From Komarekiella atlantica HA4396-MV6 (GTDB lineage Bacteria > Cyanobacteriota > Cyanobacteriia > Cyanobacteriales > Nostocaceae): 34,947 bases of DNA. The stretch covers positions 1 through 34,947 of the forward strand of contig JAHHHK010000051.1 of assembly GCA_019359395.1 (NCBI GenBank), written 5' to 3'. The first letter of the stretch is position 1. Every line of letters begins with the position of its first letter. Positions 941 to 15,010 of this stretch are shown one piece after another. The notes beneath the pieces are model-generated. The model worked only from the letters and a program-made list of their open reading frames with translations. It had not been told where the DNA came from and made no database searches. A program made the translations under genes and the position numbers.

Positions 941-968
941 AGTTATCCAATAAGTTATCTAATAACTT
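941..968 (-). repeat. Tandem GTTATYCAATAA repeat, copy 1
   Basis: Two adjoining near-palindromes (GTTATCCAATAA, then GTTATCTAATAAC) end one base before the ATG of the 154-aa gene. In the mRNA the repeat occupies the place of the ribosome-binding site. It belongs to the family of nine sites described in the findings. Confidence 0.85.
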
Positions 969-973
969 TCAAA

Positions 974-3340
974 TTACTCACTCCTCCTAACATCGCTGCT
1001 ACCTATTTCCGTGGTTACAGCACTAGCAGTTTTCTCATCTCCTACCAACTTCTTGATAGCATCCTCACCATCTTTCTTACTCTTCTCAAATTCCTCCTTC
1101 TGTCCCTTCAATTGATTGAAATTATCCCCAATAGATACAACCTCACCTGTTACCTGACTGAATGCTGATACTGCATTCTCTATAGGCTGCAACCCCTGTA
1201 AAACATTATCCCACTTAGCTTGTTGAGCAGTTCTAGCTGTAGTGAATTCACTCATATCAGGAAATGCGTTCTCAAATACAGCGCCAGCACGCTTGAGCGC
1301 ATTTCCTATCTTTCCTGTATTGTTAGCAGCTAGTTCAGTGATGCTTCTGGTCATGTCAAGCATGGACTGAACTGAGAACAATATATTGGTTCCAGACTGA
1401 TATATTCTATTAGCTGCTTTGTATGCGTTAGTTAAATTGGTGAAGTTTTCCGCCCCAAATATCGTCTTGAAAAAGTTAGCAGTCCATTCACTGACTATCG
1501 ACCCGAACCCCGCTTCCTCACCCTTCTCATTCTTCCATTTAAATCCAATAGATTGAGCAACATTGTCGATACCTGCAAATAAAGTTTGAGCAATATTATT
1601 AGACAGCATTAACGCATTATGAAACACAGTAATCAAAGTAAGAATATTCAATACTCTATCAACCTGCAAAGTGTTCCACAATCTTCCGAATGTACCTGAC
1701 AAACCTTCTGGTAATTGCGCTCCTATTTTAGTGTTGATAGTATTCAGCAAAGTTAATTGAGCAGCATTAGCACCAGTGTTTAAAACATCCAAGGCATCTT
1801 TTACCTTGTTATTCGTGTTGGCATTTATTTGACTAGCGTTATCATTCAACGCTTTGTTCATGCATCCACCCGGTTGAGTTGATTTACACACTCCCGTTGC
1901 TGTTGCATTTTCTATTTGCGGAATTGTGGGTATATCGGGACGTATAGCGTTAGCGGCACGAGCAGGTATAAGTGCTACTAATCCCGTAAGGTAATCAAGT
2001 TTTGGTATTGCTTGCTGATTCACTTTTTCCTGTTCTCTGAGTCCTGTATCAATCTTCGTAAGGTCAGTTTTCACTGTACTAATATCACTTTTAATTTTTT
2101 CGACTTCTCCAGTTATTTGATTAGTCTTTGTTTGAGTGAATGCTACCCTTGCCGATAAGTCTGGTATCTGGTTGATACTCCTTTCGGCTTTAGAAAAATC
2201 TTGTTTTAGCGCTCCCACTTCCGCTGCTACTCCAGTTGTTCCCCTAGCTACAGTTTGAATACTAGGAACTATAGTTTCTTGAATATAATTTCTGTCAGCA
2301 AATTTCTCTTCTACAAATCTTCTCTCTACGTAAGTTCTGGTAGTTTGTTCTACTGCGCTTACTTGCTTAGCAATAGTTGCAGGGATTGTAGCTACGGTAG
2401 CAGTTACATTTTTAGCTGTAGTAATTGCTTCTTGAGCTGATGATTGAATATTGGATATCAAGGTATTTAGAGAAGCTACTTTCTCGTTAGCTACTTTTGC
2501 TTCTAGCTGAGCTTCTTGCAATCCTTTTTGAAGAGTAGTAACTGTAGTGGATATCTGCTGCTGAAAGTTTTGATTAACTCCAGAGAGATATCTGTTAACT
2601 TGTTGCTGTAAGTTGTTTATTTTTTCATCTACAACTTTCCTACCTTGCCTTGTTTCATAGAGTGCATCATTACTTTGTTTATTAGCAATAGCTATTTTAT
2701 CCTCTACAATTTTTCGTCCCTGCCTTGTCTCGTAAAGCGCATTATTCGCCGCTTCTCTAGCTTTTACTGTGTTGCGCTCTAATCCACCAAAATCCTTGCT
2801 AAGTCTGTCAACGTCAATATTATTTTTTGTTATTTGTTTGACAGTATTTTCTAAATCTTTTTTGACATTATCAACACGGGATTTAATGGTTCCCAATGTA
2901 GTTAGTATTTTTGAGCCATCTAATCCAAGTCTTAAAAGCTGTTTATCTACAATATCATTAATGCCATTTTGAACTAAAGTAGAGTGGATTACTGCTGCTG
3001 CTAGACCCCCTTGCATGACGAGAAAAATTAGCTGACCACCCAAAGCACCAGCATTCTGAGGCGTACCCCCTCCCGGCATTTTTTTGTAGAATGCATCGTT
3101 GAGCTTCTTGATGTTATCTGCTGTCTTTGAAGTTTTTGTAATTGTGTCTTCTACCTTAGTGAATTTACCATTTAAGTAAGCGCTTCGTTTTAGTATGCTT
3201 GTTAATCCATTAGCTATCCCTGGGATGCGTTTTATCTCTCTGAGTCTTGCATAAAAACCACGAGTAAATTTTGCTGATTCTAGATAAAAATCCATCCCTG
3301 CTTTAGTAGTAATAGGAACACTAGGCGGCGGCAAACTCAT
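974..3340 (-). CDS. Large coiled-coil protein, candidate tail tape measure, 788 aa
   Basis: Most of the protein is heptad-patterned helix. Hydrophobic stretches lie at residues ~100-128 (GALGGQLIFLVMQGGLAAAV) and ~560-590 (VLNILTLITVFHNALMLS). A near-exact 25-residue duplication carries NALYETRQGRKIV (from ~200) and DALYETRQGRKVV (from ~226). Two Cys lie close together at ~485-493. Length, coiled coil and internal hydrophobic helices are what phage tape-measure proteins show; at about 1.5 angstrom per residue it would set a tail of roughly 0.12 micrometre. I recall cyanobacterial proteins with the same C-terminal pattern (HNALMLS, ITELAANNTGKIGNAL). The start overlaps the stop of the 101-aa gene (ATGA), so the two are translationally coupled. 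A fibre or adhesin-like role is the alternative. Confidence 0.7.
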   Translation of the reverse strand: MSLPPPSVPITTKAGMDFYLESAKFTRGFYARLREIKRIPGIANGLTSILKRSAYLNGKFTKVEDTITKTSKTADNIKKLNDAFYKKMPGGGTPQNAGALGGQLIFLVMQGGLAAAVIHSTLVQNGINDIVDKQLLRLGLDGSKILTTLGTIKSRVDNVKKDLENTVKQITKNNIDVDRLSKDFGGLERNTVKAREAANNALYETRQGRKIVEDKIAIANKQSNDALYETRQGRKVVDEKINNLQQQVNRYLSGVNQNFQQQISTTVTTLQKGLQEAQLEAKVANEKVASLNTLISNIQSSAQEAITTAKNVTATVATIPATIAKQVSAVEQTTRTYVERRFVEEKFADRNYIQETIVPSIQTVARGTTGVAAEVGALKQDFSKAERSINQIPDLSARVAFTQTKTNQITGEVEKIKSDISTVKTDLTKIDTGLREQEKVNQQAIPKLDYLTGLVALIPARAANAIRPDIPTIPQIENATATGVCKSTQPGGCMNKALNDNASQINANTNNKVKDALDVLNTGANAAQLTLLNTINTKIGAQLPEGLSGTFGRLWNTLQVDRVLNILTLITVFHNALMLSNNIAQTLFAGIDNVAQSIGFKWKNEKGEEAGFGSIVSEWTANFFKTIFGAENFTNLTNAYKAANRIYQSGTNILFSVQSMLDMTRSITELAANNTGKIGNALKRAGAVFENAFPDMSEFTTARTAQQAKWDNVLQGLQPIENAVSAFSQVTGEVVSIGDNFNQLKGQKEEFEKSKKDGEDAIKKLVGDEKTASAVTTEIGSSDVRRSE

Positions 3341-3642
3341 TTAAATATTCCTCCAAATATTTGAAATACTTCAAGCGCTTCTTTGAAAAAATCTGTAGCT
3401 AGATTTTTAAATTTACTCAATAAATCCTCGATACTTGCACAGTAACTTTCTAGTACCGATACGCGTTTTGCTAACGCTGCTAAATCAGCTTGATTATTTT
3501 TTGGATGCTGTGGATTTCTTGAGTTATCATCCTCTAATCTTTTCACCCTATTTTCTAATTGCTTATTTCTATTATTCGCTTCTCTAAGTGCTTTATTTAA
3601 ATTAGCTAAAGCTGTATCAATATCCTTGCATTGTTCAGCCAT
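3337..3642 (-). CDS. Small coiled-coil protein, 101 aa
   Basis: The N-terminal half is a strong coiled coil (ALREANNRNKQLENRVKRLE). A polar linker (SRNPQHPKNNQ) and a second amphipathic helix ending in aromatic and hydrophobic residues (FQIFGGIFK) follow. It is translationally coupled to the 788-aa gene through an ATGA overlap, which suggests a partner or chaperone for it. The ATG at 3642 lies ten bases after the tandem repeat at 3653-3678. There is no clear Shine-Dalgarno sequence. Family unknown. Confidence 0.7.
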   Translation of the reverse strand: MAEQCKDIDTALANLNKALREANNRNKQLENRVKRLEDDNSRNPQHPKNNQADLAALAKRVSVLESYCASIEDLLSKFKNLATDFFKEALEVFQIFGGIFK

Positions 3643-3652
3643 GATTTGTATT

Positions 3653-3678
3653 TTATTGGATAACTTATTGAATAACTT
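3653..3678 (-). repeat. Tandem GTTATYCAATAA repeat, copy 2
   Basis: TTATTGGATAAC followed by TTATTGAATAACTT. It lies between the 191-aa and 101-aa genes, overlaps the stop codon of the former, and is 10 bp upstream of the ATG of the latter. Confidence 0.85.
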
Positions 3679-4252
3679 AAGAAATACCTCTAGCTAGATT
3701 ATTGATTTTATCTGCTGTACTTTTGCAAGGAATACAACAATAGCCAGGATATTTATTGTGTGTACATTTTATTTGCCCTAGAGGGCAATCTTCATTACAA
3801 GAAACTTTATAATTGCATTCAGAAACCGCGACTACATAAAGATTGTTTCCGTTGCTGTCTTTTACCACCAGCCCATTGTCACCGCTAGGAGTGAATTTTG
3901 TAGAGGATAAAGTTATCACACCACATCCAATACTAAAAGCATCGTTTAATAATCTTTCCCCAGTAGGCGATACTGCCCAAGATTGGTATCTATTACCGTC
4001 ATATCCTGTACTGTCAGGCACAGCCCGAAATTCTAAAGTTTCATTTTCGTAGAGAGCTATTTCTCGCGTTTGATTTTGGCACTGAGATACTGGATTCGCT
4101 CCACTATAGCTATATGTAAGATTTCCCGATCTACCACGAGCATCTACAGGAGTACAGGTAACAGAAAAAGGTGGATTATTTATCTCTATTACCTTAGTGA
4201 TACCTTTATCAATCAAACTAACCTTTCCTTTTTGCTTGCCTTCACAATGCAT
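3677..4252 (-). CDS. Cys-rich beta protein, phage-appendage-like, 191 aa
   Basis: The N-terminal ~140 residues look like beta strands rich in Ser, Thr, Gly and Asn. The C-terminal ~45 residues hold a dense cysteine cluster (CNYKVSCNEDCPLGQIKC, then YPGYCCIPC), the spacing of a small disulfide- or metal-stabilised module. There is no signal peptide or membrane segment. It starts 2 bp after the stop of the tail-fibre-like gene, so the two are surely co-transcribed. A virion appendage or host-contact protein is the best guess from position; no enzyme motif is seen. Confidence 0.65.
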   Translation of the reverse strand: MHCEGKQKGKVSLIDKGITKVIEINNPPFSVTCTPVDARGRSGNLTYSYSGANPVSQCQNQTREIALYENETLEFRAVPDSTGYDGNRYQSWAVSPTGERLLNDAFSIGCGVITLSSTKFTPSGDNGLVVKDSNGNNLYVVAVSECNYKVSCNEDCPLGQIKCTHNKYPGYCCIPCKSTADKINNLARGIS

Positions 4253-4254
4253 AT

Positions 4255-4851
4255 TTAGCCAACCTTAAATAATTCAATAATTGTAAAAATTTCATTTGGA
4301 CTCCCAAACCCTGTAGCATTCCCCAGACCCCATGTTGCTTGGCTGGCATTGCAATAATATTGAATTTGAAGATTTTTATTAGCTGCAATGGCAAATTGCC
4401 CTTTAATAAAGCAGTGCCCTGACTGGACGCTAGAGCCTGATAAGAAATATTCACTACTGGAATACAAAATGTCTGTATTATTAGTTATATTTCTTAATCG
4501 ACACCGCGTTCTTCCGCTTCCCTCAAATGGAATTTGAGCAATAATCCTATAAATTCCAGAAGGTAATGCAAATGAGTTGCTACCGAGTGTTACTGCTGCT
4601 GTTTCGTCGTTCTGGATAGTATTAATAACTCTTGTTTGCCAACTACCAGTAACGGATGAGCCACCATGAGTATTATCAGGTTTTGTGTCTAATAATTGAA
4701 TATATTGATTATTAACAAAACTACCAATACCAGATAAAAAATTACCTCTAGTAATATGCTTAGTTGTACCATTTGATTCTTGAATCGGTATAATATCCGT
4801 ATTTTCAGGCACGGTTTTTTCAGTGCCTAAATCCTTAATCTGTTTGAACAT
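4255..4851 (-). CDS. Tail-fibre-like protein with C1q/TNF-like beta domain, 198 aa
   Basis: The N-terminus (IKDLGTEKTVPENTDIIPIQ, then THITRGNFL-like wording with NGTTKHITRGNF) matches the short linker found at the start of many phage fibre proteins. The rest (GSWQTRVINTIQNDETAAVTL, then FALPSGIYRIIAQIPF, RCRLRNITNNTDILYSSSEYF and IFTIIELFKVG) follows a jelly-roll receptor-binding domain I know from phage tail fibres. The normal form of that domain is about 130 residues and looks complete. The gene overlaps the upstream 118-aa gene by 17 bp. It probably sits at the virion surface and binds the host envelope. I am fairly sure of the fold class and less sure of the role. Confidence 0.75.
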   Translation of the reverse strand: MFKQIKDLGTEKTVPENTDIIPIQESNGTTKHITRGNFLSGIGSFVNNQYIQLLDTKPDNTHGGSSVTGSWQTRVINTIQNDETAAVTLGSNSFALPSGIYRIIAQIPFEGSGRTRCRLRNITNNTDILYSSSEYFLSGSSVQSGHCFIKGQFAIAANKNLQIQYYCNASQATWGLGNATGFGSPNEIFTIIELFKVG

Positions 4852-5191
4852 AGCTTTCTAAAATAATTGTTTCTGTTAGATAAACGTTGCCATTACGTTC
4901 TTTGGCGTAGGCATCCCAGCGAAAGATTTCTAGAAGTTCATACAACTGACGATTGTCGTATCCGATTGGGGTGTTATTTTCGTCTGTGATTTTATTGCCG
5001 TTTTCATCGGTTAAGTAACCCTGAAAATTACTAAGCGCATAGAGGATGATTGCAACTACTAGTTGCTCGGCTTTATTACTTGCTGCTGGTGTAAAGCCGA
5101 CTGCTACCAAATCAGCTTTTTTGATTACCAATTCAGTAGCAGTTTGACTAGCACTTTCACCGAATAATTGCTGAAGTGTTAGTGCTTGCAT
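4835..5191 (-). CDS. Paralogue B of tandem phage-type pair, 118 aa
   Basis: Residues 5-50 (LQQLFGESASQTATELVIKKADLVAVGFTPAASNKAEQL) align position by position with the neighbouring gene at 5191-5526. The middle (DENGNKITDENNTPIGYDNRQLYEL) differs. The C-terminus (WDAYAKERNGNVYLTETIILESY) again matches the end of the paralogue (TTRNNTIYLRNTISVEV). The ATG at 5191 overlaps the stop of the upstream paralogue by one base. No membrane segment. The pair resembles short virion components lying beside fibre genes; the exact role is unknown. Confidence 0.7.
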   Translation of the reverse strand: MQALTLQQLFGESASQTATELVIKKADLVAVGFTPAASNKAEQLVVAIILYALSNFQGYLTDENGNKITDENNTPIGYDNRQLYELLEIFRWDAYAKERNGNVYLTETIILESYVQTD

Positions 5192-5526
5192 TAGTAGTCA
5201 TCGGGGTCGATTGTGTCAGCACCAACCAGAAATCTATCAACTTCAACGCTGATAGTATTTCTCAGATAAATGGTGTTGTTACGGGTAGTGATAGCAGGCG
5301 AAAACCCATCTACTACAGCTACGCTTTGGTCAATATTGGTGTCTCTAGCTTCATCCGTGAGTGCTGCTTTAAATTTTAAGATGATTGCTAATAGTAAAGA
5401 CTCAGCAGTATTGTTTGCTGAAGGAGTCAAGCCAGTACTAATTAAATCAGACTTCTTGATGATTAAATCAGTAGCATCTTGAGTTGAGTTATTACCAAAA
5501 ACTTGAATTAATGTTGGTTCAGCCAT
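5191..5526 (-). CDS. Paralogue A of tandem phage-type pair, 111 aa
   Basis: The start is placed at ATG 5526 (MAEPTLIQVFGNN). A longer frame back to 5583 would translate the tandem repeat as FKLLNNLFNNYYN and is not credible. The N-terminal half (TQDATDLIIKKSDLISTGLTPSANNTAESLLLAIILKF) is paralogous to the next gene. It is the first gene of the leftward block, 20 bp after the operator-like repeat at 5547-5574, and faces the rightward block across about 100 bp. Function unknown, probably structural. Confidence 0.7.
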   Translation of the reverse strand: MAEPTLIQVFGNNSTQDATDLIIKKSDLISTGLTPSANNTAESLLLAIILKFKAALTDEARDTNIDQSVAVVDGFSPAITTRNNTIYLRNTISVEVDRFLVGADTIDPDDY

Positions 5527-5546
5527 GTGTTTATGTGTGTTGTAAT

Positions 5547-5574
5547 AGTTATTGAATAAGTTATTCAATAACTT
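5547..5574 (-). repeat. Tandem GTTATYCAATAA repeat, copy 3
   Basis: GTTATTGAATAA followed by GTTATTCAATAAC. It lies in the divergent region between the leftward and rightward blocks, 20 bp before the ATG at 5526, where it could control both directions. Confidence 0.85.
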
Positions 5575-5628
5575 GAAAAACATCTCTCTATGCTAAAGTA
5601 AGCATAATGTATAAACCTATACTTGACA

Positions 5629-7850: not shown

Positions 7851-7862
7851 GTTATCCAATAA
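7851..7862 (+). repeat. GTTATYCAATAA half-site, copy 4
   Basis: A single unit, GTTATCCAATAA, lies ten bases before ATG 7873. It is the only start-associated copy that is not a tandem, and the only one followed by a Shine-Dalgarno-like AAGG. Confidence 0.65.
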
Positions 7863-8152: not shown

Positions 8153-8203
8153 ATTGAATAAGTTGTTGTTGTAAGACTTATTCAATAACTTATTCAATAA
8201 CTT
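8153..8203 (+). repeat. GTTATYCAATAA repeat cluster, copy 5
   Basis: ATTGAATAAGTT (8153-8164) is followed, after a 12-nt spacer, by a tandem pair CTTATTCAATAA / CTTATTCAATAACTT (8177-8203). The cluster therefore has three units and is the largest in the window. ATG 8211 of the next gene lies 7 bp downstream. Confidence 0.85.
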
Positions 8204-8210
8204 TAAGAAC

Positions 8211-8498
8211 ATGGAAGAAAAGCAAGTTCACTGGACAGAATTATACGGGAACAAGTTTCGATTTCTTCCTCATCCCTTGATGTTGACGCCTGAAGGATAT
8301 GAACTAAGGATTAGCACCAAGATTGCAGGTGAGTCGAAAAATGTATCAGTTCCAGTTGTCGTGCGATTTGATGAGAATTACGTGATTCAATTCATTGCGA
8401 ATATTCTCAGCAGATTGCAACCATCAAAATACAATGACTGGCAAAAAATAGTTAGCAAGGCTTACGCTGTCTGGAATGAAAAAAAAGGTAAGGAGTAA
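8211..8498 (+). CDS. Unknown protein, 95 aa
   Basis: A beta-rich first half (YELRISTKIAGESKNVSVPVVVRF) is followed by a helical end. The ATG lies 7 bp behind the repeat cluster, without a Shine-Dalgarno sequence. It overlaps the nuclease gene by 23 bp, so it is translationally coupled to it and may be its partner or regulator. No family recognised. Confidence 0.6.
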   Translation: MEEKQVHWTELYGNKFRFLPHPLMLTPEGYELRISTKIAGESKNVSVPVVVRFDENYVIQFIANILSRLQPSKYNDWQKIVSKAYAVWNEKKGKE

Positions 8499-8952
8499 TC
8501 CATTTTGGAGAAATCCAGTAACAGGGCAATGCTATTCACCGGGTACTAGTATCCCTCTAATTCAAAGAAAAAAGCTTGAGCATTGGGATAGTGCTTTAGA
8601 GTTTGAAACTTATTGCAAACTTCGAGCTAGATTCAAGACAGCAAGAATTATCCGACAAGAAGAATTAACCTTACTTCCGAAAACACTTTGCTTCTCCGAG
8701 TTAACTTGGAAAGTAGACTTTATGTTAGTAAGTTCTTCTCAAGATATCCTTTATGTTGAAACTAAAGGTCAGTGGATATTGCATGATAAATCTGCTATGT
8801 CTGACTTTTGCAAAACACTAAGAATTCTAGAAAATCAGCAACCAAAGATATTTCATTCATTAGTGGTTGTGAGTGACTCTAGCTTTAGAATTGCAGGCTC
8901 AAATATATTCACTACTCGGATAAAAGAAATTGAAACCTTGCGATTTGCATGA
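8476..8952 (+). CDS. PD-(D/E)XK nuclease, phage type (DUF1064/TnsA-like), 158 aa
   Basis: The catalytic pattern is visible: acidic residues E42/E44 in a helix (ALEFETYCKLR), D81 in LTWKVDFML, then E95-x-K97 in LYVETKGQW, with a following helix and beta strand (HSLVVVSD). This is the order of small PD-(D/E)XK nucleases of the DUF1064/TnsA-like type found in phage replication regions, where they act as resolvase-like or structure-specific endonucleases. Length is normal. It is coupled to the genes on both sides (23-bp overlap upstream, ATGA downstream). Fold assignment is firm, substrate unknown. Confidence 0.75.
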   Translation: MKKKVRSNPFWRNPVTGQCYSPGTSIPLIQRKKLEHWDSALEFETYCKLRARFKTARIIRQEELTLLPKTLCFSELTWKVDFMLVSSSQDILYVETKGQWILHDKSAMSDFCKTLRILENQQPKIFHSLVVVSDSSFRIAGSNIFTTRIKEIETLRFA

Positions 8953-9404
8953 ATATATTGGTGATGAAAGATAGTTTCTGGGATGAACCTACTATCAGGT
9001 ATGTAGGTAGAACCAGAACAGGATTAAGGCTAGGAAATCCGTGGTGTGAAAAGTATTCTAGGCAAGCTAGATACTTTGTAGAAACCAAACAAGAAGCGAT
9101 AGATAATTATAGAGAATGGTTGCACAAAAAAATCATCAAAGACTACATCCTTGGAGTCCCTACGATAGCTTTTGATAAATGGGAAGTTGGCTATTTAACA
9201 CAAGTAATTGTACTTGCTAGGGATATTCAATCTAATCGCGTACTATCTCTTGGTTGTTGGTGTGTAACTACCTTGAACTATGAACCAGTACCAGACGGAC
9301 AAGAAAAATGCCATGCAGAGATACTCTACAAAGCGTGTCTTCAATTGATTGACCACTGGAAGAAGCAAGATTTATTAGCAGCGAGAAAAAATGCAAATGA
9401 GTAA
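8949..9404 (+). CDS. DUF4326-family protein, 151 aa
   Basis: RTRTGLRLGNPW near residue 20, AIDNYREWL near 50, then LGCWCVTTLNYEP with a later EKCHAEIL motif match the Cys/His pattern of DUF4326 (usually GCWCxPxxCHGDVL). In this copy the two halves are separated by a longer loop. The family is common in phages and mobile elements and has no settled function; the CxC...CH residues may bind metal. The start is the ATGA overlap with the nuclease gene. It overlaps the next gene by 14 bp. Confidence 0.75.
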   Translation: MNILVMKDSFWDEPTIRYVGRTRTGLRLGNPWCEKYSRQARYFVETKQEAIDNYREWLHKKIIKDYILGVPTIAFDKWEVGYLTQVIVLARDIQSNRVLSLGCWCVTTLNYEPVPDGQEKCHAEILYKACLQLIDHWKKQDLLAARKNANE

Positions 9405-10122
9405 GTTTTGGTACATGCCTGCTAAAGAAGGCAATAAATACGCTTATGTTGGTACATCCAATTGGGCAGAGGCTAACAGTCAAATTGACTTTTCGGAACT
9501 TGGTTTTTGTGATGACGACAGCTTCTATTATGTATTCGCTTATGTTACGAAGTTCAACGGAATCGCGAAGCTTAGGGATGACTCATGGTCATTTGAACCG
9601 CAGTTAATTCAATTTAAGGTAGCTAAAAAAGATTACGAAAAGACCGATAAAGAAGGCAAACAACAAAAAGTTGTTCAATCACGGTTAGAGAAATGGTTAT
9701 GCAAGCTATTTGATGAACTTGATGAAGGTATCTACTCAGGTTCATTAAGCTTGCAAGATTGCTCAATGGTTGAAAGTTTTGTAACTGGATTGGACAATTC
9801 AGGCAAGCCTGTTGACCCTACAACACTCAAGATAATGCAGGGAACTTATGCATCTTTGGAGCTTGTTGAAAAGCCAGAGAAAGTATTACCTGAAGATATT
9901 AAAACACCTAGCGGTAAAAGCTACAGCAAGGGTGGATACGCTAAAGGACAGACTGAACTAGAAAAATTGAATGATAGGGTTAGTTTCATCTGTCAGCAAG
10001 TAAATAACCAGACTTCTATTCCTGTTGAAAACTTTGCTCAACTAGTAGACATTCTGGAAATTAGTCCTGAAAAAGAAACAATCAGCAAGATACTTTCTCT
10101 GTGTACCAGCTTAATGTCTTAG
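9391..10122 (+). CDS. Unknown protein of the replication-type operon, 243 aa
   Basis: The N-terminal half is beta-rich and aromatic (FWYMPAKEGNKYAYVG, then SFYYVFAYVTKF). A charged middle (KKDYEKTDKEGKQQKVVQSRLEKW) and a helical C-terminus (LVDILEISPEKETISKILSLC) follow. Position between a nuclease/DUF4326 pair and a P-loop ATPase suggests a DNA-binding accessory factor, but no motif proves it. Start at ATG 9391, or 9397 two codons later; GCGAG upstream is a weak ribosome-binding site. Confidence 0.6.
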   Translation: MQMSKFWYMPAKEGNKYAYVGTSNWAEANSQIDFSELGFCDDDSFYYVFAYVTKFNGIAKLRDDSWSFEPQLIQFKVAKKDYEKTDKEGKQQKVVQSRLEKWLCKLFDELDEGIYSGSLSLQDCSMVESFVTGLDNSGKPVDPTTLKIMQGTYASLELVEKPEKVLPEDIKTPSGKSYSKGGYAKGQTELEKLNDRVSFICQQVNNQTSIPVENFAQLVDILEISPEKETISKILSLCTSLMS

Positions 10123-10130: not shown

Positions 10131-10159
10131 AAGTTATTGGATAACTTATCCAATAACTT
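10131..10159 (+). repeat. Tandem GTTATYCAATAA repeat, copy 6
   Basis: GTTATTGGATAAC followed by TTATCCAATAACTT. The two units mirror each other, so the whole site is almost a perfect palindrome. It lies 16 bp before ATG 10176 of the ATPase gene. Confidence 0.85.
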
Positions 10160-10175: not shown

Positions 10176-11399
10176 ATGACTGAAACCATACCTTACCTTG
10201 ACCCTAACGAATTCTACAGACAAGAGATGGATTCATGGGAGGAGTTATGGGATAACAGCCTTTCTCTATCTCAGAATGTATCCAATATCCTCAATCAAGC
10301 TGTACTTCTTCCACAAAGAGATTTGATGTTGCCTATTCTTGCTACCTACATCCTTATTCCTAGCAAGTGGGCGAGAATTCTGCCTATTCTGTTTAGCTGG
10401 GGTGGCAAGGGTTCTGGGAAGTCCACTACTGCTGTATTTGCTGCTAAATTGCATGGATTAAATCAGACTTTCTCAGCTACAGATACATTTTCAGCTATCA
10501 GGAATGCCTTGGATAGCATGAGGTGGATAGACCCACAAGACAAGCAATTCGAGAAAGAAGGAGTACTTTTACCATGGGATAACATCCACATTGGAACACT
10601 CAAGCGAGACGAGAGAATCTATCAGCTATTACTGTTTGGGTATTCTCGGTCAAGCGATAAAATCTCTATTGCATCGCCAGATGGAACTAACAAAGAGTTC
10701 TTTGTATTCAGCCCAAAAATTATCAGTAGTGTAGACGACATTCATCTATTCCCAGATTTTGAAGAACTGCATAGAAGGCTGCTAGTAATTCCTCATAAAT
10801 CATTCGATGACTTTACACCAGAGGAGAAATTACCCTATCAAAATTTTGATGTTCATACAGACAAAATAGACTTGGACGCTGTTTACTGGGATGGAATTGA
10901 AGATAAGTTTTTTGAATTCTGGAACAATCCAGAGAATGGAAAACTTTACGCTAAATACAGAACTACGCTAACTCGCAAGGGGAAGAAGGCTTTTGAACAT
11001 TCGATGAAAACTTCTCAATGGATTATTTCAATTGACTTAATTGTGACTGGATTAGTAACAGGAACTTGGAGAAACATACCAGAGGCGATTAGACATTTAG
11101 AGAAGTACTGGAAATTTGCTGATAAATACATCTTTGGGTTAACGTCAGCGACAATTCAACATTTACGAGATTTCATTCATGAGGAAACAGGGAATCAGAA
11201 AAAGGTAAATGATGAATTAATTAGATTAGGAAGAGAACCAATTGAGTTAATAATTTCACCTCAAAAATTAAAATCTCGGATTAAATATCACAACGATAGG
11301 GGTGAACTGGATATACCACCGATGCCTAGAGATATCGTCAGCATTATGAGCAAATTGGGTTGGAGGCTAACGAGTAAAGGATGGATGGAAAAAAAATAA
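10176..11399 (+). CDS. P-loop ATPase, replicative helicase-like (SF3/AAA+ type), 407 aa
   Basis: ATG 10176 (MTETIPYLDPNEF) is chosen; an upstream TTG at 10137 would translate the repeat. Walker A is GGKGSGKST at residues 76-84. Walker B is LLPWDN at 131-136. A sensor-1-like strand FVFSPKIISSVDD lies at 177-188 and an arginine pair LHRRLLVI at 199-205. This order resembles the ATPase part of phage and plasmid primase-helicases (DUF3631/D5-like). No primase domain precedes it, and the C-terminus is a small helical DNA-binding-like region. It overlaps the 103-aa gene by 19 bp. A packaging ATPase is the alternative. Confidence 0.7.
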   Translation: MTETIPYLDPNEFYRQEMDSWEELWDNSLSLSQNVSNILNQAVLLPQRDLMLPILATYILIPSKWARILPILFSWGGKGSGKSTTAVFAAKLHGLNQTFSATDTFSAIRNALDSMRWIDPQDKQFEKEGVLLPWDNIHIGTLKRDERIYQLLLFGYSRSSDKISIASPDGTNKEFFVFSPKIISSVDDIHLFPDFEELHRRLLVIPHKSFDDFTPEEKLPYQNFDVHTDKIDLDAVYWDGIEDKFFEFWNNPENGKLYAKYRTTLTRKGKKAFEHSMKTSQWIISIDLIVTGLVTGTWRNIPEAIRHLEKYWKFADKYIFGLTSATIQHLRDFIHEETGNQKKVNDELIRLGREPIELIISPQKLKSRIKYHNDRGELDIPPMPRDIVSIMSKLGWRLTSKGWMEKK

Positions 11400-11692
11400 G
11401 TAGATGGTATACGCTTTTGTGGATAGAAACTACAACTAGTAAATTTTACGTAGCGTTACCTTTTAGTAGCTTGAATAGTGCAATTTTGAGTTTATTCGAT
11501 AAAGGTAGCTTTTCACCTAATGAATTCAGCAGAGAGTTTCAAGAAATCGAAAAGGCTTGCACTGATAGTCCTATTGTTTGTCACTGCGTTGATGATGATA
11601 TGCCGAAGTGGATTTTAGCTGAAGAGTGTATTGTGGCTTTACTGTTGAAGGAATTGAAAAGGCGCAAAATTTCCGTAGCACTAAACCAATAG
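11381..11692 (+). CDS. Unknown protein, 103 aa
   Basis: ATG 11381 lies inside the last codons of the ATPase gene, so the two are translationally coupled. Mixed alpha/beta (ISRWYTLLWIETTTSKFYVAL, later CHCVDDDMPKWILAEECIVALLLKEL). Three Cys at about residues 65-87 are noted but form no known motif. Possibly an ATPase accessory factor, from coupling only. Confidence 0.6.
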   Translation: MDGKKISRWYTLLWIETTTSKFYVALPFSSLNSAILSLFDKGSFSPNEFSREFQEIEKACTDSPIVCHCVDDDMPKWILAEECIVALLLKELKRRKISVALNQ

Positions 11693-11695
11693 AAA

Positions 11696-11935
11696 ATGAA
11701 ACTAAAAGAAAACGACTTCGTGACGGTTCCTAAACACGAGTACATAATACTCACTTATGCCTTAATTTTAGGAGCAGAAATACTCAGGCAAGAAACAAAA
11801 ATGCCAGGAAGGTACTGGTACTCATTGTTAATTGAAGAGTCTAAACAGAGGTATCGCGAGCTTACGCCAGAAGAGATTGACTGCGTAATAGCAGAAGCCG
11901 AAAAAGTAAGAAAACAATTTGTAGAGCAAGCATAA
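11696..11935 (+). CDS. Small helical protein, paralogue 1, 79 aa
   Basis: The pattern VPKHEYIILTYALILGAEILR, then RYRELTPEEIDCVIAEAEKVRK is repeated in the next gene (IPRDEYILGELMLGDAICLL, KYQELSSEEVEEMIYSV). The two are diverged tandem duplicates. There is a 3-bp gap after the 103-aa gene and a weak ribosome-binding site. Function unknown. Confidence 0.6.
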   Translation: MKLKENDFVTVPKHEYIILTYALILGAEILRQETKMPGRYWYSLLIEESKQRYRELTPEEIDCVIAEAEKVRKQFVEQA

Positions 11936-11943
11936 GGAGAAAG

Positions 11944-12210
11944 ATGGAACCTTCAAAAACTGAAATGATGCAAATACCTAGAGATGAATACATTCTCGGT
12001 GAATTAATGTTAGGTGATGCAATATGTTTGCTTGCCAGCATAACGATGAAAGTTTCTGATGAAGATGTTGAGACAGTTCTTATTAGATGGCTTGATTACT
12101 TGAGAAACAGAGCAGAAGAAAAGTATCAAGAACTTTCTTCTGAAGAAGTAGAAGAAATGATTTATAGCGTCAGGATGACTTGGAGAGAAGGAAAGTACAA
12201 ACTTGATTGA
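11944..12210 (+). CDS. Small helical protein, paralogue 2, 88 aa
   Basis: This is the second copy of the duplicated family described for the gene at 11696. It is preceded by a strong AAGGAGAAAG ribosome-binding site, unlike its paralogue, which suggests higher translation. It is acidic and helical, with no catalytic motif. The next gene follows after 10 bp. Confidence 0.6.
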   Translation: MEPSKTEMMQIPRDEYILGELMLGDAICLLASITMKVSDEDVETVLIRWLDYLRNRAEEKYQELSSEEVEEMIYSVRMTWREGKYKLD

Positions 12211-12220
12211 GGATAAAGCA

Positions 12221-12559
12221 ATGAGACATGTGATTAAGGTTTGCGGTGGTGGAGAAATATCGGATATTGATGTAGGAGATGAAAAACTTAGCGAGAAATT
12301 CATCAAGGATAATATCGGGATTTCGGATGGTCGTAGTTGGTTTGAGAGAGTGCGATTTCCTGGTATTGGCGAGGTCGATATTATCTGTGATGAAGAAGGA
12401 AAGTTGAAGAGTTTAAAGCCTTCTTTGCTGTTTGAAAATGATTACATTGCAGGGGATTGCTTAATCGTAAGCATAGAGTACGACGATGAAGGTGAATTTG
12501 CATGGTTTGGATTGAGTGAGGAACAGAGTGCAGCAGTGATTGAGAGAATTGTCTTCTAG
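12221..12559 (+). CDS. DUF3846-like protein, 112 aa
   Basis: ATG 12221 follows GAGG at 9-bp spacing; an upstream TTG at 12203 overlaps the previous gene and is less likely. The C-terminal half (ICDEEGKLKSLKPSLLFENDYIAGDCLIVSI, then WFGLSEEQSAAV) fits the DUF3846 pattern (xNEEGKLxxLpxN...DxIxGxflI...sLtdee). That family occurs in phages, plasmids and conjugative elements and has no proven function. Call by motif memory, moderately sure. Confidence 0.6.
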   Translation: MRHVIKVCGGGEISDIDVGDEKLSEKFIKDNIGISDGRSWFERVRFPGIGEVDIICDEEGKLKSLKPSLLFENDYIAGDCLIVSIEYDDEGEFAWFGLSEEQSAAVIERIVF

Positions 12560-12566
12560 GGGAGTT

Positions 12567-13292
12567 ATGGATAAAGCTAAACGAGCAACAATTCAAATTG
12601 CAGGGATTGAAGTAGAGGTGTTTCAGTTACCTGACGGTGAGTATGTGATGAGTCAAACTCAGGTTGCGGGGGCGGTTGGGAAGCCTGAGTGGAGCATTCG
12701 GGATTTTTTATCCTCAAAACAGTCAAAAACCTTGCTAGGTAAAAACTATAGACTCGGCAAAAATTCAATCCCAGTCGATCATGAGACTTGTCGCGGTAGC
12801 ACTCGAATTCAAATTCTACCGATTGGACTAGCTAGCGCTTACTGGCTAAACCAAGCATTTAAGGGCAATGTCAAAGCTGAATCGCTAGCTTATGCGTGTA
12901 TGAAGGAAGCGCTAGAGCGTAGGTGTGATAAAGCTTTTCAGCAACAGAAGGCAGAGCAAGAGTATGAAGAACAAGCGGTTATCAGCCGTCAGACCTGGGA
13001 ACAATCCAGAGGATTCCTGAGAGATGCTCATTCTTCACTTGTGAATTGCTGTCTAGCGTGGGGTTTTGATGGAGCGAGAACCCACAATGAAATTACTCTT
13101 GCTGTGTGTGGAAAGACAGCTAAGGAGTTAAGGGAAATGGAAGTGATTGAAGGTAATCCAAAAGTAGGACTTAATCACATCCAGGATAAGGAAGTGCTAG
13201 TGAAGATAGCGAGAGTGAAAATAGAATTCTCCCGTTATCGTTCCGGCACTATGAAACAACGAGTTACACGAGCAGTAGAAGCAATCAACTAG
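12567..13292 (+). CDS. Antirepressor-like / KilA-N-like DNA-binding protein, 241 aa
   Basis: ATG 12567 with AGGGGAG just upstream decides the start; the frame runs back to 12540 without a better start. The N-terminal ~100 residues (IQIAGIEVEVFQLPDGEYVMSQTQVAGAVGK, then IQILPIGLASAYWLNQAFKGN) follow the pattern of phage antirepressor and BRO/KilA-N-like N-domains. A coiled linker (QQQKAEQEYEEQAVISR) and a C-terminal helical domain follow (EITLAVCGKTAKELREMEV). Such proteins bind repressors or operators in phages. Here it could counteract the regulator of the tandem repeats, which is inference. Confidence 0.55.
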   Translation: MDKAKRATIQIAGIEVEVFQLPDGEYVMSQTQVAGAVGKPEWSIRDFLSSKQSKTLLGKNYRLGKNSIPVDHETCRGSTRIQILPIGLASAYWLNQAFKGNVKAESLAYACMKEALERRCDKAFQQQKAEQEYEEQAVISRQTWEQSRGFLRDAHSSLVNCCLAWGFDGARTHNEITLAVCGKTAKELREMEVIEGNPKVGLNHIQDKEVLVKIARVKIEFSRYRSGTMKQRVTRAVEAIN

Positions 13293-13303
13293 GAGATAAA
13301 TGC

Positions 13304-13708
13304 ATGGAAATTCTAACAGTTCGGGCGTCTTTCATATTACCTACAGGTAACAATAATAAGGAAGAGATAGGGTTTACTGTTCGATTAGGACGTGGTGAAA
13401 ATATAGGGCAAGCTGTAGCTGACTTGCGAGAGCGAGCGATAAAAATAGTGGGACAGTCAGCACAAGAATTTTATTACCGTAGGCATGAACTTGAAGAAGC
13501 TTGCGGAACATTAGAAAACAAACTAGCCAAGTTACGTAGCGAGTGGGATGCTACTGCTGAATTTTTACGCAAGCAAGGCATCAACCCAGAATGTCCATCC
13601 CTGCCTCAATTCGATAATCTGCTATCTGCTGCTAGACCATTAGATGAGGTGGTAGCTGAACTTGATTATGAGGAAGATGAGGAAGATGAGGAAGATGAGG
13701 AAGATTAA
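13304..13708 (+). CDS. Coiled-coil protein with acidic repeat tail, 134 aa
   Basis: AGGAG lies 8 bp before ATG 13304. The middle is helical (EEACGTLENKLAKLRSEWDATAEFLRKQG). The C-terminus is EEDEEDEEDEED, encoded by a pure 9-bp tandem repeat at 13670-13705. Such acidic tails occur in SSB-like proteins and DNA mimics and can change length by slippage. An intrinsic terminator follows 18 bp after the stop, so this is the last gene of the long rightward operon. Confidence 0.65.
   Translation: MEILTVRASFILPTGNNNKEEIGFTVRLGRGENIGQAVADLRERAIKIVGQSAQEFYYRRHELEEACGTLENKLAKLRSEWDATAEFLRKQGINPECPSLPQFDNLLSAARPLDEVVAELDYEEDEEDEEDEED
13670..13705 (+). repeat. Four exact copies of GAGGAAGAT
   Basis: Four in-frame 9-bp units encode (EED)4 at the end of the 134-aa protein, directly before the stop codon. 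They are identical, which suggests recent expansion by slippage. Confidence 0.9.
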
Positions 13709-13725
13709 TTAAAGGTTTCTCCCTT

Positions 13726-13755
13726 AGTCCTCTATGCACAGTAGGGGACTTTCTT
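13726..13755 (+). terminator. Rho-independent terminator after the long operon
   Basis: AGTCCTCTA (13726-13734), a 7-nt loop and TAGGGGACT (13742-13750) pair with one G-T wobble, followed by TTCTT. An ATG at 13734 lies in the hairpin and is therefore not the start of the following gene. Confidence 0.75.
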
Positions 13756-13765
13756 GTATGCGTGA

Positions 13766-13793
13766 AAGTTATCCAATAAGTTATTCAATAACT
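13766..13793 (+). repeat. Tandem GTTATYCAATAA repeat, copy 7
   Basis: GTTATCCAATAA followed by GTTATTCAATAAC. It ends one base before ATG 13794, the same geometry as copy 1, and again no Shine-Dalgarno sequence is present. Confidence 0.85.
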
Positions 13794-13997
13794 ATGAGAC
13801 AACGTACTTTAGACAATGGCTATAAAGTAGTAATCGATATTTGTCAGGTATATGCTAAGGGCGTCCCGATAAAATGCGCTTATGCTGTGATAGTAAACAG
13901 TAAACATCGACCAGTGAGTAACCAGTATACTTATTGGCGATTATGCGATTGTGAGGCAAAGTTTCACAAGTTGGTAAAAAAGTACAGCAAGTACTAG
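13794..13997 (+). CDS. Unknown small protein, 67 aa
   Basis: The start is placed at ATG 13794, directly behind the repeat. A longer frame from 13734 would translate the terminator and the repeat. The protein is basic and Tyr-rich (GYKVVIDICQVYAKGVPIKCAYAVIV, then WRLCDCEAKFHKLVKKYSKY). It reads as beta-beta-alpha with three Cys. It converges on the ribbon-helix-helix gene with 4 bp between the stops. Family unknown. Confidence 0.6.
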   Translation: MRQRTLDNGYKVVIDICQVYAKGVPIKCAYAVIVNSKHRPVSNQYTYWRLCDCEAKFHKLVKKYSKY

Positions 13998-14001
13998 CAG
14001 A

Positions 14002-14190
14002 CTATTTCTCTCTATCCTTATCTAGCGCGTCTTGGATAGCACGCCTACAAAATTCAGGTGGATCGTCTTTCGCTTTAACTTCTTCTTTCATTTCTTTTGT
14101 GACTCGAAAACTTAACTGATCGCTTAACACCTCATTCCCTTTTTGCTGTGCTGGTTCAAAATTTTGAGGATTCCCTTTTGGGTTAGGCAT
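14002..14190 (-). CDS. Ribbon-helix-helix DNA-binding protein, 62 aa
   Basis: A polar N-terminal arm (MPNPKGNPQNFEPAQQKGN) is followed by a short strand LSFRVT (26-31) and two helices, KEMKEEVKAK (32-41) and PPEFCRRAIQDALDK (44-58). This is the strand-helix-helix order of CopG/Arc-type dimeric repressors, and small cyanobacterial plasmid proteins begin in the same way. Such dimers bind short palindromes, often in tandem. It is divergent from the SAP-domain gene over an 11-bp perfect inverted repeat (14248-14288), which fits autoregulation. It is the only compact classical repressor fold I see in the element and so the first candidate to bind the tandem repeats. Confidence 0.7.
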   Translation of the reverse strand: MPNPKGNPQNFEPAQQKGNEVLSDQLSFRVTKEMKEEVKAKDDPPEFCRRAIQDALDKDREK

Positions 14191-14247
14191 TGTTTAGAAA
14201 TATAAATAAGGCTTGATACTAACGAAACCATTAGAATAGATTGTTTA

Positions 14248-14288
14248 ATCGGTGGTGAACTGTTTTCCAGACTGGTATCACCACCGAT
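14248..14288. promoter_or_regulatory. Perfect 11-bp inverted repeat in a divergent promoter
   Basis: ATCGGTGGTGA (14248-14258) and TCACCACCGAT (14278-14288) are exact reverse complements, 19 nt apart. CCAGACTGG, a smaller palindrome, lies between them. The site is between the ribbon-helix-helix gene (minus) and the SAP gene (plus), 14 bp before ATG 14303. It could be an operator or an mRNA hairpin in the SAP leader. Confidence 0.7.
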
Positions 14289-14302
14289 ACCACTTTTAAA
14301 AA

Positions 14303-14692
14303 ATGGTTGATTCTATGTTTACACGATCGGAACTCGAAATCAAAACAATCAGGGAACTTGATGACTTGTGTAGGCGGTACGGATTAAAGCCTACCGGGAA
14401 CAGAGGATACAAGACAAGTTACCTTACTTCTCTTATTGCATTCCCGGCGATCGCGCTTAATCAGTTTCAGCAAGGTAGGGGATTGAAACCACCTACTTTT
14501 GAATTCATGCAAGCACTCTGTGAAGCGATAAGTGCAATGAGTTCACCTACGGATGAACAAGCAGCGCTCATCAAAGCATCTATGGAGGGCAAGTGCATGA
14601 ATTACCCAGACAGATACACTCAAGAGAAGCTGCTAGCTATGCATAAAGCCAAGATGTATCTAGAGCTAGCAATGGGATTGTTAAGTCAGTAA
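14303..14692 (+). CDS. SAP-domain DNA-binding protein, 129 aa
   Basis: Residues 15-47 (TIRELDDLCRRYGLKPTGNRGYKTSYLTSLI) show the SAP pattern: helix, LxxLCxxxGL, K/R-P-TG, then K..YI..L. SAP domains bind AT-rich DNA. The rest is helical with no enzyme motif. Start is ATG 14303 or 14315; neither has a ribosome-binding site, and the leader can fold into the 11-bp stem. It carries the only HIP1 octamer in the element (14447-14454). An intrinsic terminator follows. Confidence 0.7.
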   Translation: MVDSMFTRSELEIKTIRELDDLCRRYGLKPTGNRGYKTSYLTSLIAFPAIALNQFQQGRGLKPPTFEFMQALCEAISAMSSPTDEQAALIKASMEGKCMNYPDRYTQEKLLAMHKAKMYLELAMGLLSQ

Positions 14693-14713
14693 CACAACAC
14701 CACCATTCAACCT

Positions 14714-14745
14714 CAATCCCCTCTGTGTATAGAGGGGATTTTTTA
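14714..14745 (+). terminator. Rho-independent terminator after the SAP gene
   Basis: A perfect 10-bp stem, AATCCCCTCT (14714-14723) and AGAGGGGATT (14730-14739), with a 6-nt loop, runs into a T-rich tract up to 14745. Confidence 0.9.
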
Positions 14746-14772
14746 TTTATTGGATAAGTTATCCAATAACTT
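14746..14772. repeat. Tandem GTTATYCAATAA repeat, copy 8
   Basis: TTATTGGATAA followed by GTTATCCAATAACTT, directly after the terminator. No gene start lies close, so it may serve a promoter of a non-coding transcript or a structural role such as an iteron. Confidence 0.8.
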
Positions 14773-14850
14773 TAGAATTATCTCTATATATCAATACCTA
14801 TGTACTATTTTCTTGCCCATTCTCAATAGTGGATGATAATGACTCTCACG

Positions 14851-14921
14851 ATAGGCTAATTCCCGCCTATAATGCCCTGCAAGCGGGTATGCGCAAGGGA
14901 ATGAAGAGAATGCACTCTCAT
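14851..14921 (+). ncRNA. Candidate structured RNA or attachment/origin region
   Basis: Three successive stems can form: ATAGGC / GCCTAT (14851-14870), ATGCCC / GGGTAT with one wobble (14872-14890), and ATGA(A)GAG / CTCTCAT (14901-14921). An alternative pairing AATTCCC (14858-14864) with GGGAAT (14897-14902) would enclose the second stem, so the fold could switch. ACTCTCA flanks the structure as a direct repeat (14842 and 14914). No family recognised. Confidence 0.35.
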
Positions 14922-14995
14922 CTCGTAATAGGTGGCTTACTGACAAAATGAGCTAGAATCCTTATGGTGTATAGGTTTATGATTTGTTGAATATT

Positions 14996-15010
14996 TTATT
15001 GAATAAGTTA
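14996..15010. repeat. GTTATYCAATAA repeat, copy 9
   Basis: TTATTGAATAAGTTA, one and a half units. It is the rightmost copy, and no further member of the family with two units is found up to the window end. Confidence 0.65.

Follow-up and report, generated by a model that had tools for sequence, protein, structure and literature searches.

Why does one short near-palindrome recur, mostly in tandem, before genes of both strands along 15 kb of cyanobacterial DNA, and what might read it? The window analysed here is a stretch of 34,947 nucleotides from Komarekiella atlantica HA4396-MV6. Its positions 1-15180 form an element whose other end lies on contig C17. A sequence-only reading had placed the motif at nine positions in this element and taken them for one element-wide regulon.

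Array sites of the element

The unit is an 11-bp near-palindrome, TTATYSRATAA, which is repeated every 12 bp and forms seven tandem arrays in the window element (Table 1). An eighth array, degenerate with two mismatches, is at C17:288-312, and C17 holds one single unit besides; the first reading, confined to the window, has neither of these. The nine positions first reported are right within 2 bp, except that the one put at 8153 is the pair at 8178-8200; about 24 bp upstream of this pair is a degenerate third copy, ATTGAATAAG. The seven window arrays all fall between genes, though only 8.1% of the 23-mers there are wholly intergenic. The start codon of an element gene is found 2-22 bp downstream of seven of the nine window sites, on both strands, which agrees with the earlier count but for its range of 0-20 bp. 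A minus-strand promoter-like match (5629-5601) precedes the array at 5549 by about 30 bp, the array at 13769 comes after a terminator-like hairpin (13726-13750), and a TTGACA (7813-7818) upstream of the single unit at 7852 was read by eye, not being listed by the promoter scan. That scan listed fewer promoter-like sites in 1-15200 (26) than it did in shuffles (41.5 ± 6.6), and a single promoter-like match therefore means little.

No clear Shine-Dalgarno sequence was read after the tandem copies in the window, as had been claimed. This absence is not a feature of the family, since purine-rich leaders do follow the arrays in the relatives G019 and G232, and AAGGATG follows the single site at 7852.

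Table 1. Array sites, genes and other features of the window element and its right end
Feature	Position	Strand	Remarks
Tandem array, 2 units, period 12	943..965	.	2 bp before start codon (940) of 154-aa minus-strand gene
Tandem array, 2 units, period 12	3653..3675	.	10 bp before minus-strand gene starting 3642
Tandem array, 2 units, divergent region	5549..5571	.	22 bp before minus-strand gene starting 5526
Single unit	7852..7862	.	10 bp before gene at 7873
Tandem array, 2 units	8178..8200	.	10 bp before p8211
p8211, 95 aa	8211..8498	+	conserved in related elements, no known family; candidate reader by elimination
p8476, 158 aa, core gene	8476..8952	+	resembles PD-(D/E)XK nucleases by eye; without family match
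p9391, 243 aa, core gene, no assigned function	9391..10122	+	
Tandem array, 2 units, fully complementary	10134..10156	.	19 bp before helicase gene
Core ATPase/helicase-like protein, 407 aa	10176..11399	+	by eye, Walker A GGKGSGKST, no family match
Phage-type protein, 241 aa	12567..13292	+	phrog_32599; shared by the elements of the window, G019 and G232
Tandem array, 2 units	13769..13791	.	2 bp before small ORF at 13794
62-aa ribbon-helix-helix-like protein	14002..14190	-	by sequence pattern; separate divergent module with own inverted repeat
Operator-like inverted repeat CGGTGGTGA...TCACCACCG	14191..14302	.	between 62-aa and 129-aa genes
129-aa protein	14303..14692	+	divergent partner of 62-aa gene
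Tandem array, 2 units, right non-coding end	14747..14769	.	directly after terminator-like hairpin (14715-14740)
Single unit, right non-coding end	14996..15006	.	upstream of host gene start
attR, 21-bp attachment core	15180..15200	+	second copy at C17:2033-2053

Rarity outside the element

Are such sites special to the element? With up to three mismatches and on both strands, GTTATTGAATAAC has 51 matches against 18.0 ± 5.0 in 100 shuffles (largest 32), a count in which one palindromic site may appear twice. In the whole genome (7.78 Mb searched), the tandem pattern with up to three mismatches occurs eight times, seven times in the window element and once on C17, while a backwards-read control gave three. 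The proposed whole-genome motif search thus puts 8 of 8 tandem sites inside the element and none elsewhere in the chromosome. Of the 26 single units with no more than one mismatch, eight are on contig C45, two on C17 and 16 elsewhere; those outside the element are at background level, since the control also gave 16. Among 217 genomes of the family, the 23-mer with at most one mismatch forms dense sets only in the window genome (7) and in G343 (10), where at least one of the matches lies outside the element. It has no match in four other genomes of the same genus and one or two in each of 15 genomes; the control matched in three genomes (1, 1 and 4).

Same layout, different codes in related elements

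The helicase was used as the probe to find related elements, and 34 related loci were obtained. Arrays are borne by 15 elements. Their period is 12 in the window element with C17 and in G019, G232a, G232b, G343, G694, G733, G719, G715, G801 and G567, and 13 in L008, G653, G457 and G178, the last being irregular. G232a and G232b belong to the same genome and are 98% identical over 12.5 kb, and G719 and G715 are closely related as well (helicase identity 93%). An unbiased scan for recurrent tandem palindromes was passed by 13 of the 34 loci. Ten of these fall in a peak at period 12, among them G566 with a trinucleotide-type repeat, and three in a peak at period 13. Its control, one Markov sequence per locus, gave zero at all periods. 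G019, G694 and G457 were missed by the scan and found by seeds and by eye.

Many helicase relatives are without arrays. In the remaining 19 of the 34 loci, several of which are short or cut contigs, seed search and scan found no such array or other repeats only; G717, one of them, has one degenerate GATGSCATC pair. The repeats of G566 and G421 were set aside as trinucleotide-type or other. So were the seven-base repeats of G624, G631, G569 and G567 (one of its two types), which we take to be of the STRR type. Cyanobacterial STRR sequences have a 7-bp repeat unit, unlike the arrays with their period of 12 or 13.

What is kept among the relatives? Their arrays consist of two or three near-palindromic units, 12 bp apart (13 in the more distant ones). 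The number of units per array is constant within an element, with pairs in the window and triples in G019, G232 and G343, and there are about 3-9 arrays per element. An array precedes the p8211 gene in 10 of the 15 array-bearing elements, and the helicase gene also in 10 (gaps of 19 to 106 bp where mapped), with five elements lacking it in each case. All five elements with a recognised integrase have an array on the 3' side of its gene. In three of them the array directly separates this gene from the first convergent one, in the window element it adjoins the end of the contig, and in G232b a small gene intervenes. Here the window element, G343 and G567 were counted for their match to Pfam Phage_integrase, and G232a and G232b for integrases 53% identical to that of the window element. 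L008 and G653 also bear arrays in the same place, but their integrase-like genes have no Pfam match and were excluded from this count. Some arrays sit between convergent genes; several others are within co-directional runs, where the upstream stop codon is 10-30 bp away and no promoter is visible.

The letters, in contrast, change. We counted 12 different codes among the array-bearing elements; G343 has the window unit, and all other relatives differ in letters, the unit of G694 being window-like. Thus the expectation that the motif would be conserved before the same genes in relatives is borne out for position and architecture but, outside G343, not for the letters. The proposal of an element-wide regulon is supported in part: there is one set of sites at gene or operon boundaries of both strands, with positions largely kept in relatives. 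Directly observed are the sites and their confinement to the element, where they lie and how they are spaced, and the different codes of the relatives.

Could the arrays simply be repetitive extragenic palindromes, spread by copying, without a binding protein encoded by the element? Near-identical short palindromes limited to intergenic gaps are in keeping with such an origin. However, elements that differ in code have arrays at recurring positions, and the period and the number of units are constant. A transposase was not noticed in the window element on casual reading. We consider this origin highly improbable.

Arrays as probable dispersed operators

We give a rough probability of 0.6 to the reading that the arrays are dispersed operators of one dimeric regulator encoded by the element, similar to stoperators and shifting in specificity from one element to another. 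One dimer would cover each 11-bp near-palindrome. Two or three dimers would lie side by side with their centres exactly 12 bp apart (13 in the more distant elements), a fixed spacing which implies that neighbouring dimers touch. Arrays stand before genes that open an operon or lie inside one, and others follow terminator-like hairpins, separate convergent genes or lie at the element ends; a regulator bound at such places might block the initiation or the passage of RNA polymerase. The integrated element would then be silenced, in a way resembling a phage repressor that stops transcription elongation at its dispersed operators. If the specificity of the regulator changes, the sites would follow, and all units of one element would change together. 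The outcome would be a private code for each element, as in heteroimmune phages. Protein binding, repression and immunity at the arrays are what we infer on this reading.

Might the arrays act as RNA instead? Control of translation at the RNA level had been offered as another choice, and more widely the transcribed arrays may fold into leader or intergenic hairpins that govern translation, processing or termination. Of 26 sites placed against their downstream gene, 18 were 2-30 bp before the start codon, which would suit such a role, as would the missing Shine-Dalgarno sequences in the window and the outer inverted flanks read around several arrays. The self-complementarity of the units is 67-81% in G343 and the window. 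In a permutation test, four of the seven multi-array sets have their units oriented at random as regards hairpin pairing, the fraction at or above the observed value being 0.43 in the window, 0.50 in G343, 0.64 in G232a and 0.88 in G719; the single C17 array is also random in this respect. A mild pairing tendency, outer units pairing somewhat better than random, appears in the other three sets (G653 0.05, L008 0.12 and G019 0.14), and four of four arrays in G653 are fully complementary. Yet fully complementary outer units occur in only three of seven window arrays and two of six G343 arrays, no more than random orientation gives. The random orientation fits a recognition of each unit in DNA rather than a single RNA hairpin. 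Besides, arrays are found between convergent genes and after terminator-like hairpins, a hairpin would not require a strict 12-bp period, and an Rfam search of window 1-15300 had no match. The RNA-level explanation is therefore weakened and seems rather unlikely, a hairpin role being somewhat less improbable in the three mildly pairing sets.

A further alternative is replication or partition, with the arrays as iterons or centromere-like sites for an initiator or partition protein and serving as operators as well. They are tandem repeats of constant spacing and adjoin the helicase and p8211 genes, and the core cassette looks replicative by eye, with its helicase-like and nuclease-like proteins. 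But the sites are spread over the whole element and not clustered at a single origin, and the scanned window proteins (24 with Pfam, 20 with PHROGs) have no match to ParA, ParB or Rep families. Plasmid iterons, too, are direct repeats at one origin by the Rep gene, whereas the arrays extend over 15 kb plus C17. Iterons had been suggested for the last two copies in particular; this does not hold up, as these have the same units as the others and the 14747 site follows a terminator-like hairpin. We regard this alternative as unlikely.

Candidate proteins for reading the arrays

Which protein would be the regulator of such dispersed operators? No known DNA-binding family common to all elements was found, and none of the four core proteins follows the code. 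For example, G343 has the window's unit, yet its core proteins are only 32-49% identical to those of the window, and G694 has a window-like unit, yet its core proteins are nearer to those of G019 and G232. The helicase has no match among PDB sequences at E up to 0.1. We consider p8211 a candidate reader by elimination only, since its AlphaFold2 model on three sequences has pLDDT 72.8 and pTM 0.48 and Foldseek gave no match with E ≤0.001; the idea of a recognisable DNA-binding fold in p8211 was dropped for the same reasons.

One tentative extension, possible but doubtful in our view, is that an undescribed regulator, perhaps p8211, builds rows of dimers on arrays of 12-13-bp pitch where transcription units meet. 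Since the arrays of each element would be switched together to a private code, this would amount to a modular and readable heteroimmunity system.

The 62-aa protein had been named as the binder before. Ribbon-helix-helix-type proteins are able to bind tandem sites, and this small protein is present in the elements of the window, G232, G019 (C71) and G694 (C101), with weak relatives in G719 and G715 by clustering. Nevertheless, it has no match in the array-bearing genomes G343, G733 and G801. G232a and G232b share an identical array code, yet the presumed DNA-reading strand differs between them (NLSFRV vs TVTFRT). This strand varies with the inverted repeat beside its own gene, Q going with CGGTGGTG and N with GGGTA, and the 62-aa/129-aa gene pair occurs without element-like arrays in four loci (L089, L090, L091 and L093). 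The protein thus goes with a different repeat and, unlike what CopG/Arc-type operators would suggest, not with the array sequence across relatives. It has no Pfam match and no PDB sequence match; an AlphaFold2 model from the single sequence (pTM 0.30) has two helices but lacks a strand, which speaks neither for nor against the ribbon-helix-helix fold. Judging by the variation of its strand and by the loci without arrays, it is probably not the reader, and its binding to the arrays is very unlikely.

Comparison with known systems

Is there any known system of this kind? In the parts of the literature covered by our search, neither the element family nor the 12-bp tandem arrays were found named, and the comparisons below refer to the available parts of the cited descriptions. 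Mycobacteriophages of Cluster A (L5 type) carry many short stoperators over the whole genome, which are bound by the phage's own repressor; their sequence differs between related phages, and the repressor distinguishes the variants (PMC6550527). The arrays are alike in being many dispersed sites in one element and rare elsewhere. Stoperators are, however, 13-bp and asymmetric and have mostly one orientation relative to transcription (PMC6550527), while the arrays are near-palindromic, tandem at a 12-13-bp period, placed before genes of both strands, and random in unit orientation in four of seven sets.

Cluster O mycobacteriophages have more than 30 dispersed copies of a 17-bp palindrome, TGTTCGGNNNCCGAACA, whose function is given as unknown; about one third fall within coding regions, and a close link to starts is lacking (PMC4351075). 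The likeness is in the dispersed palindromes, and the available part of that description does not mention tandem spacing. In Cluster K, the SAS and ESAS repeats lie just upstream of start codons; ESAS are inverted repeats that stay conserved in front of the same gene families, and their consensus varies from phage to phage (PMC3203893). Seven of nine window sites are similarly close to starts. But SAS lacks symmetry, has a single orientation in nearly all cases and contains a Shine-Dalgarno core (PMC3203893), whereas the arrays occur on both strands, lack Shine-Dalgarno sequences in the window, and lie in some cases between convergent genes.

The Nostoc phages A-1 and N-1, from the same host group, have phage-specific dispersed intergenic motifs, suggested as promoters or stoperators (PMC4916379), and dispersed motifs are also what the element has. 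In the 48.3 kb examined of phage A-1 we found 24 copies of AGAGTSACTCT, an 11-bp palindrome with a C/G centre; recurrent tandem palindromes with periods of 8-24 were absent from the examined parts of both phages. These are tailed phages with annotated terminase, capsid or tail genes, while one tail-fibre-like protein is the sole recognised match of this type in the element. Helicase relatives were absent from the viral contigs searched, and from the phage and plasmid collections searched by tblastn. The attR core includes the start codon (15181) of a host histidine-phosphatase/phosphoglycerate mutase-like gene.

Possible meaning of the different codes

Dispersed operators are already known from some phages. 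Then what is distinctive here? It is the letters, which differ in concert at the sites of each element, against an architecture and many positions that stay the same. The family therefore offers a natural data set on the recoding of recognition across an entire regulon, and suggests a DNA-binding protein among a handful of candidates. If an undescribed regulator is indeed at work, this would be a new DNA-recognition protein. The arrays also provide a DNA handle by which a family of cyanobacterial integrative elements can be found and named.

Tandem arrays and the extent of the element

The window (contig C45) has seven tandem arrays, each of two 11-bp units TTATYSRATAA at 12-bp pitch, and lone units at 7852 and 14996; contig C17, with the other end of the element, has a degenerate array and a lone unit near its integrase gene. 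Do such arrays belong to the element or to the genome as a whole (7,783,819 b in 80 contigs)? With at most three mismatches, the tandem pattern was found genome-wide at only eight places, the seven in the window and that of C17, against three for a backwards-read control. This bears out the sequence-only reading of an element-wide motif, since all eight lie in the element, and single units outside C45 and C17 are at background level (16 of 26 places, control 16). All seven window arrays are intergenic, compared with 8.1% of 23-mers there, and six of them, together with the lone unit at 7852, precede an element start codon by 2-22 bp. Sites 14747 and 14996 are both in the non-coding DNA of the right end, 5' of the host gene. 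Among 217 genomes of the family, dense sets of this code occur only here (7) and in the related genome G343 (10, at least one of them outside its element).

C45 is one whole contig of 34,947 b, and the right part of the integrated element covers its bases 1 to about 15,180. Host DNA follows from 15,181, beginning with a histidine-phosphatase gene (phosphoglycerate mutase-like, Pfam PF00300). C17 encodes a 469-aa integrase (Phage_integrase, E 6.6e-9) and has a 21-bp core in common with the window. In four of four other genomes of the genus, which lack the element here, the C17 flank directly adjoins the histidine-phosphatase gene. The insertion site of the element is therefore the start codon of this gene. 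We could read the core in three of these genomes, one copy differing at a single terminal position; the fourth is in reverse orientation. On C17 about 2.05 kb belong to the element, and on C45 about 15.2 kb. Since gene order between the integrase and the right end is mostly preserved in two copies in one large contig (G232a, G232b), apart from the homologue of the 5629 gene, which is placed elsewhere, we infer that little is missing between C17 and C45. A diverged repeat common to both contig ends is probably the reason why the assembly broke there.

The insertion is exactly at the start codon, so that the host coding sequence is kept and the right end of the element is now upstream of it. What used to be upstream of the host gene has come to face the integrase gene; it has a truncated frame of 18 codons that ends at a stop codon within an array unit. 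By eye, the element of Atlanticothrix (G019) appears to end just ahead of where an SMC-like chromosome-partition gene begins. With these two cases, gene starts may be the family's usual integration sites.

Coordinates of features (window positions unless a contig or locus is named)
Feature	Position	Remark
Contig-end repeat	66-127; C17:66-126	80% over about 60 bp
Tail-fibre family match	4255-4851	E 6.5e-15
Promoter-like match	5629-5601, minus	just upstream of 5549 array
TTGACA	7813-7818	before 7852 unit; by eye only
DUF4326 match	8949-9404
407-aa helicase-like gene	10176-11399
DUF3846 match	12221-12559
phrog_32599 match	12567-13292
Terminator-like hairpins	13726-13750; 14715-14740	each just upstream of an array
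62-aa gene	14002-14190, minus	pair with 129-aa gene spans 14002-14692
129-aa gene	14303-14692	divergent from 62-aa gene
Core	15180-15200	GATGACTCGTGTCATCATTGT; insertion point
Degenerate array	C17:288-312
Insertion point, 18-codon frame	C17:1970-2053
Lone unit	C17:1995	25 bp 5' of integrase start
Lysozyme/chitinase-like gene	L063 (G653) 12418-13062	by eye
Proline-rich 603-aa protein	L063 (G653) 4900-6711	by eye
Element end near SMC-like gene	L006 about 700-830	G019 C66

Related elements and their codes

With the helicase-like protein as probe, relatives were found in 2 of 60 genomes, 5 of 386 phylum-wide, 32 of 388 of the order and 14 of 217 of the family, overlapping sets in which the own genome is counted. 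They include Atlanticothrix silvestris CENA357 (G019) and a Calothrix MAG (L008, probably G706 C40); viral contigs, phages and plasmids searched gave no match. A four-gene cassette is common among the elements: by clustering, p8476, p9391 and the helicase are in 14 of 14 and p8211 in 13, that of the 14th, G567, being found by BLAST. The two G232 copies, at about 1.06 Mb and 6.16 Mb of C1, are 98% identical over 12.5 kb and have the same array code; their 62-aa proteins are different, as is the initial part of their 12567-type proteins, and one copy has a split helicase frame.

Among the window-element proteins scanned (24 with Pfam, 20 with PHROGs), the only substantial matches were to a tail-fibre family, DUF4326, DUF3846 and phrog_32599; none matched terminase, portal or capsid. 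The elements may be virus-like, as the lysozyme/chitinase-like and 603-aa genes of the G653 relative hint, with no capsid or terminase recognised in the window element.

Between elements the code changes while the array architecture stays. The window's unit recurs among relatives only in G343, there as triples at 12,12.

Array codes of related elements
Element	Unit	Pitch (bp)
G019	TACTYSRAGTA	12,12 (three units)
G232a, G232b	TACTTWAAGTA	12,12
L008	TTACTAWTAGTAA	13,13
G653	TTTGAWTCAAA	13
G457	AAAGTGTTAAC	13
G567	CTGAAAACGTTT	12
G178	GTTTAWTACAWTTG	13, irregular
G719, G715	GATGSCATC	12,12
G733	AATAATTSAATT	12
G801	GGTTWAACC	12
G694	TTATTTAAATA	12

When 34 loci were scanned without bias for tandem palindromes recurring within a locus, period 12 appeared in ten loci (one, G566, a trinucleotide-type repeat), 13 in three, 24 (twice 12) in four, and each of the remaining periods between 8 and 23 in zero to two; Markov sequences, one per locus, gave none at any period. 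An array stands directly 5' of the p8211 gene in 10 of the 15 array-bearing elements and 5' of the helicase gene in 10 of 15. In all five elements with a recognised integrase, an array lies 3' of its gene. In G232a, G343 and G567 the array occupies the gap directly between the integrase gene and the first convergent gene; in the window element it is flanked by the integrase gene and the contig end, and in G232b a 71-aa minus-strand gene intervenes between the integrase gene and the array.

Proposed mechanism and candidate array reader

How might the arrays work? Most likely they are binding sites of a repressor or stoperator type. One dimer would bind each 11-bp unit, neighbouring dimers would touch at the fixed 12-13-bp pitch, and the protein bound between genes and operons would block RNA polymerase and keep the element silent. 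The promoter-like match, the TTGACA and the two hairpins fit sites guarding leaders and unit ends. Terminator-like sites number 15 (9.5 in shuffles); promoter-like sites are fewer than in shuffles (26 versus 41.5), so the promoter evidence is weak. Alternatively, each array could act in RNA as a single hairpin, and the sets of G653, L008 and G019 lean mildly towards pairing, but unit orientation is random in those of the window, G343, G232a and G719 and in the lone C17 array.

Which protein would read the arrays? The 62-aa protein had been proposed, but it is probably not the reader. The inverted repeat between its gene and the 129-aa gene varies together with its presumed DNA-reading strand: Q-L-[SN]-F-R goes with CGGTGGTG (window, G019 C71, G019 C64), N-L-[ST]-F-R with GGGTA (G232a, G694), T-V-T-F-R with GGTGGTCT (G232b), and N-L-S-F-R with GGCAGGTAA, close to the N type (locus L091); the more distant pairs of L090 and L093 have other repeats. 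This strand is not the same in G232a and G232b, which have one common array code. Thus the protein, with its putative ribbon-helix-helix-like fold, most likely reads its own intergenic repeat. The pair also occurs outside the array-bearing elements, at G019 C64, G019 C7, G000 C38 (own genome) and G232 at 3,998,132, around which no element-type arrays were found. Equivalents of the window pair are in L088, L089, L092, G232a and G232b.

By eye p8476 is nuclease-like and the 407-aa protein ATPase-like, which leaves p8211 and p9391 among the universal proteins. The array before p8211 would suit its autoregulation. In its predicted structure (pLDDT 72.8) two long helices accompany a strand pair, and no relative was found in the PDB. 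By elimination we regard p8211 as a candidate reader, a lead and not a result.

Comparison with known systems

Nostoc phages A-1 and N-1 carry dispersed motifs of their own. The part of A-1 examined (48.3 of 68.3 kb; L119, 20001-68304) has 24 dispersed single AGAGTSACTCT and 54 TGACTCCGGGG, and that of N-1 (50.0 of 65.0 kb) has 59 TGATTCCGGGG. At 11 bp and with C or G at its centre, the palindrome AGAGTSACTCT resembles the window's units; no palindromes recurring in tandem at periods 8-24 were found in these parts. Dispersed element-specific sites are already known, and what is new is the tandem 12-bp pitch with a replaceable code in this element family.
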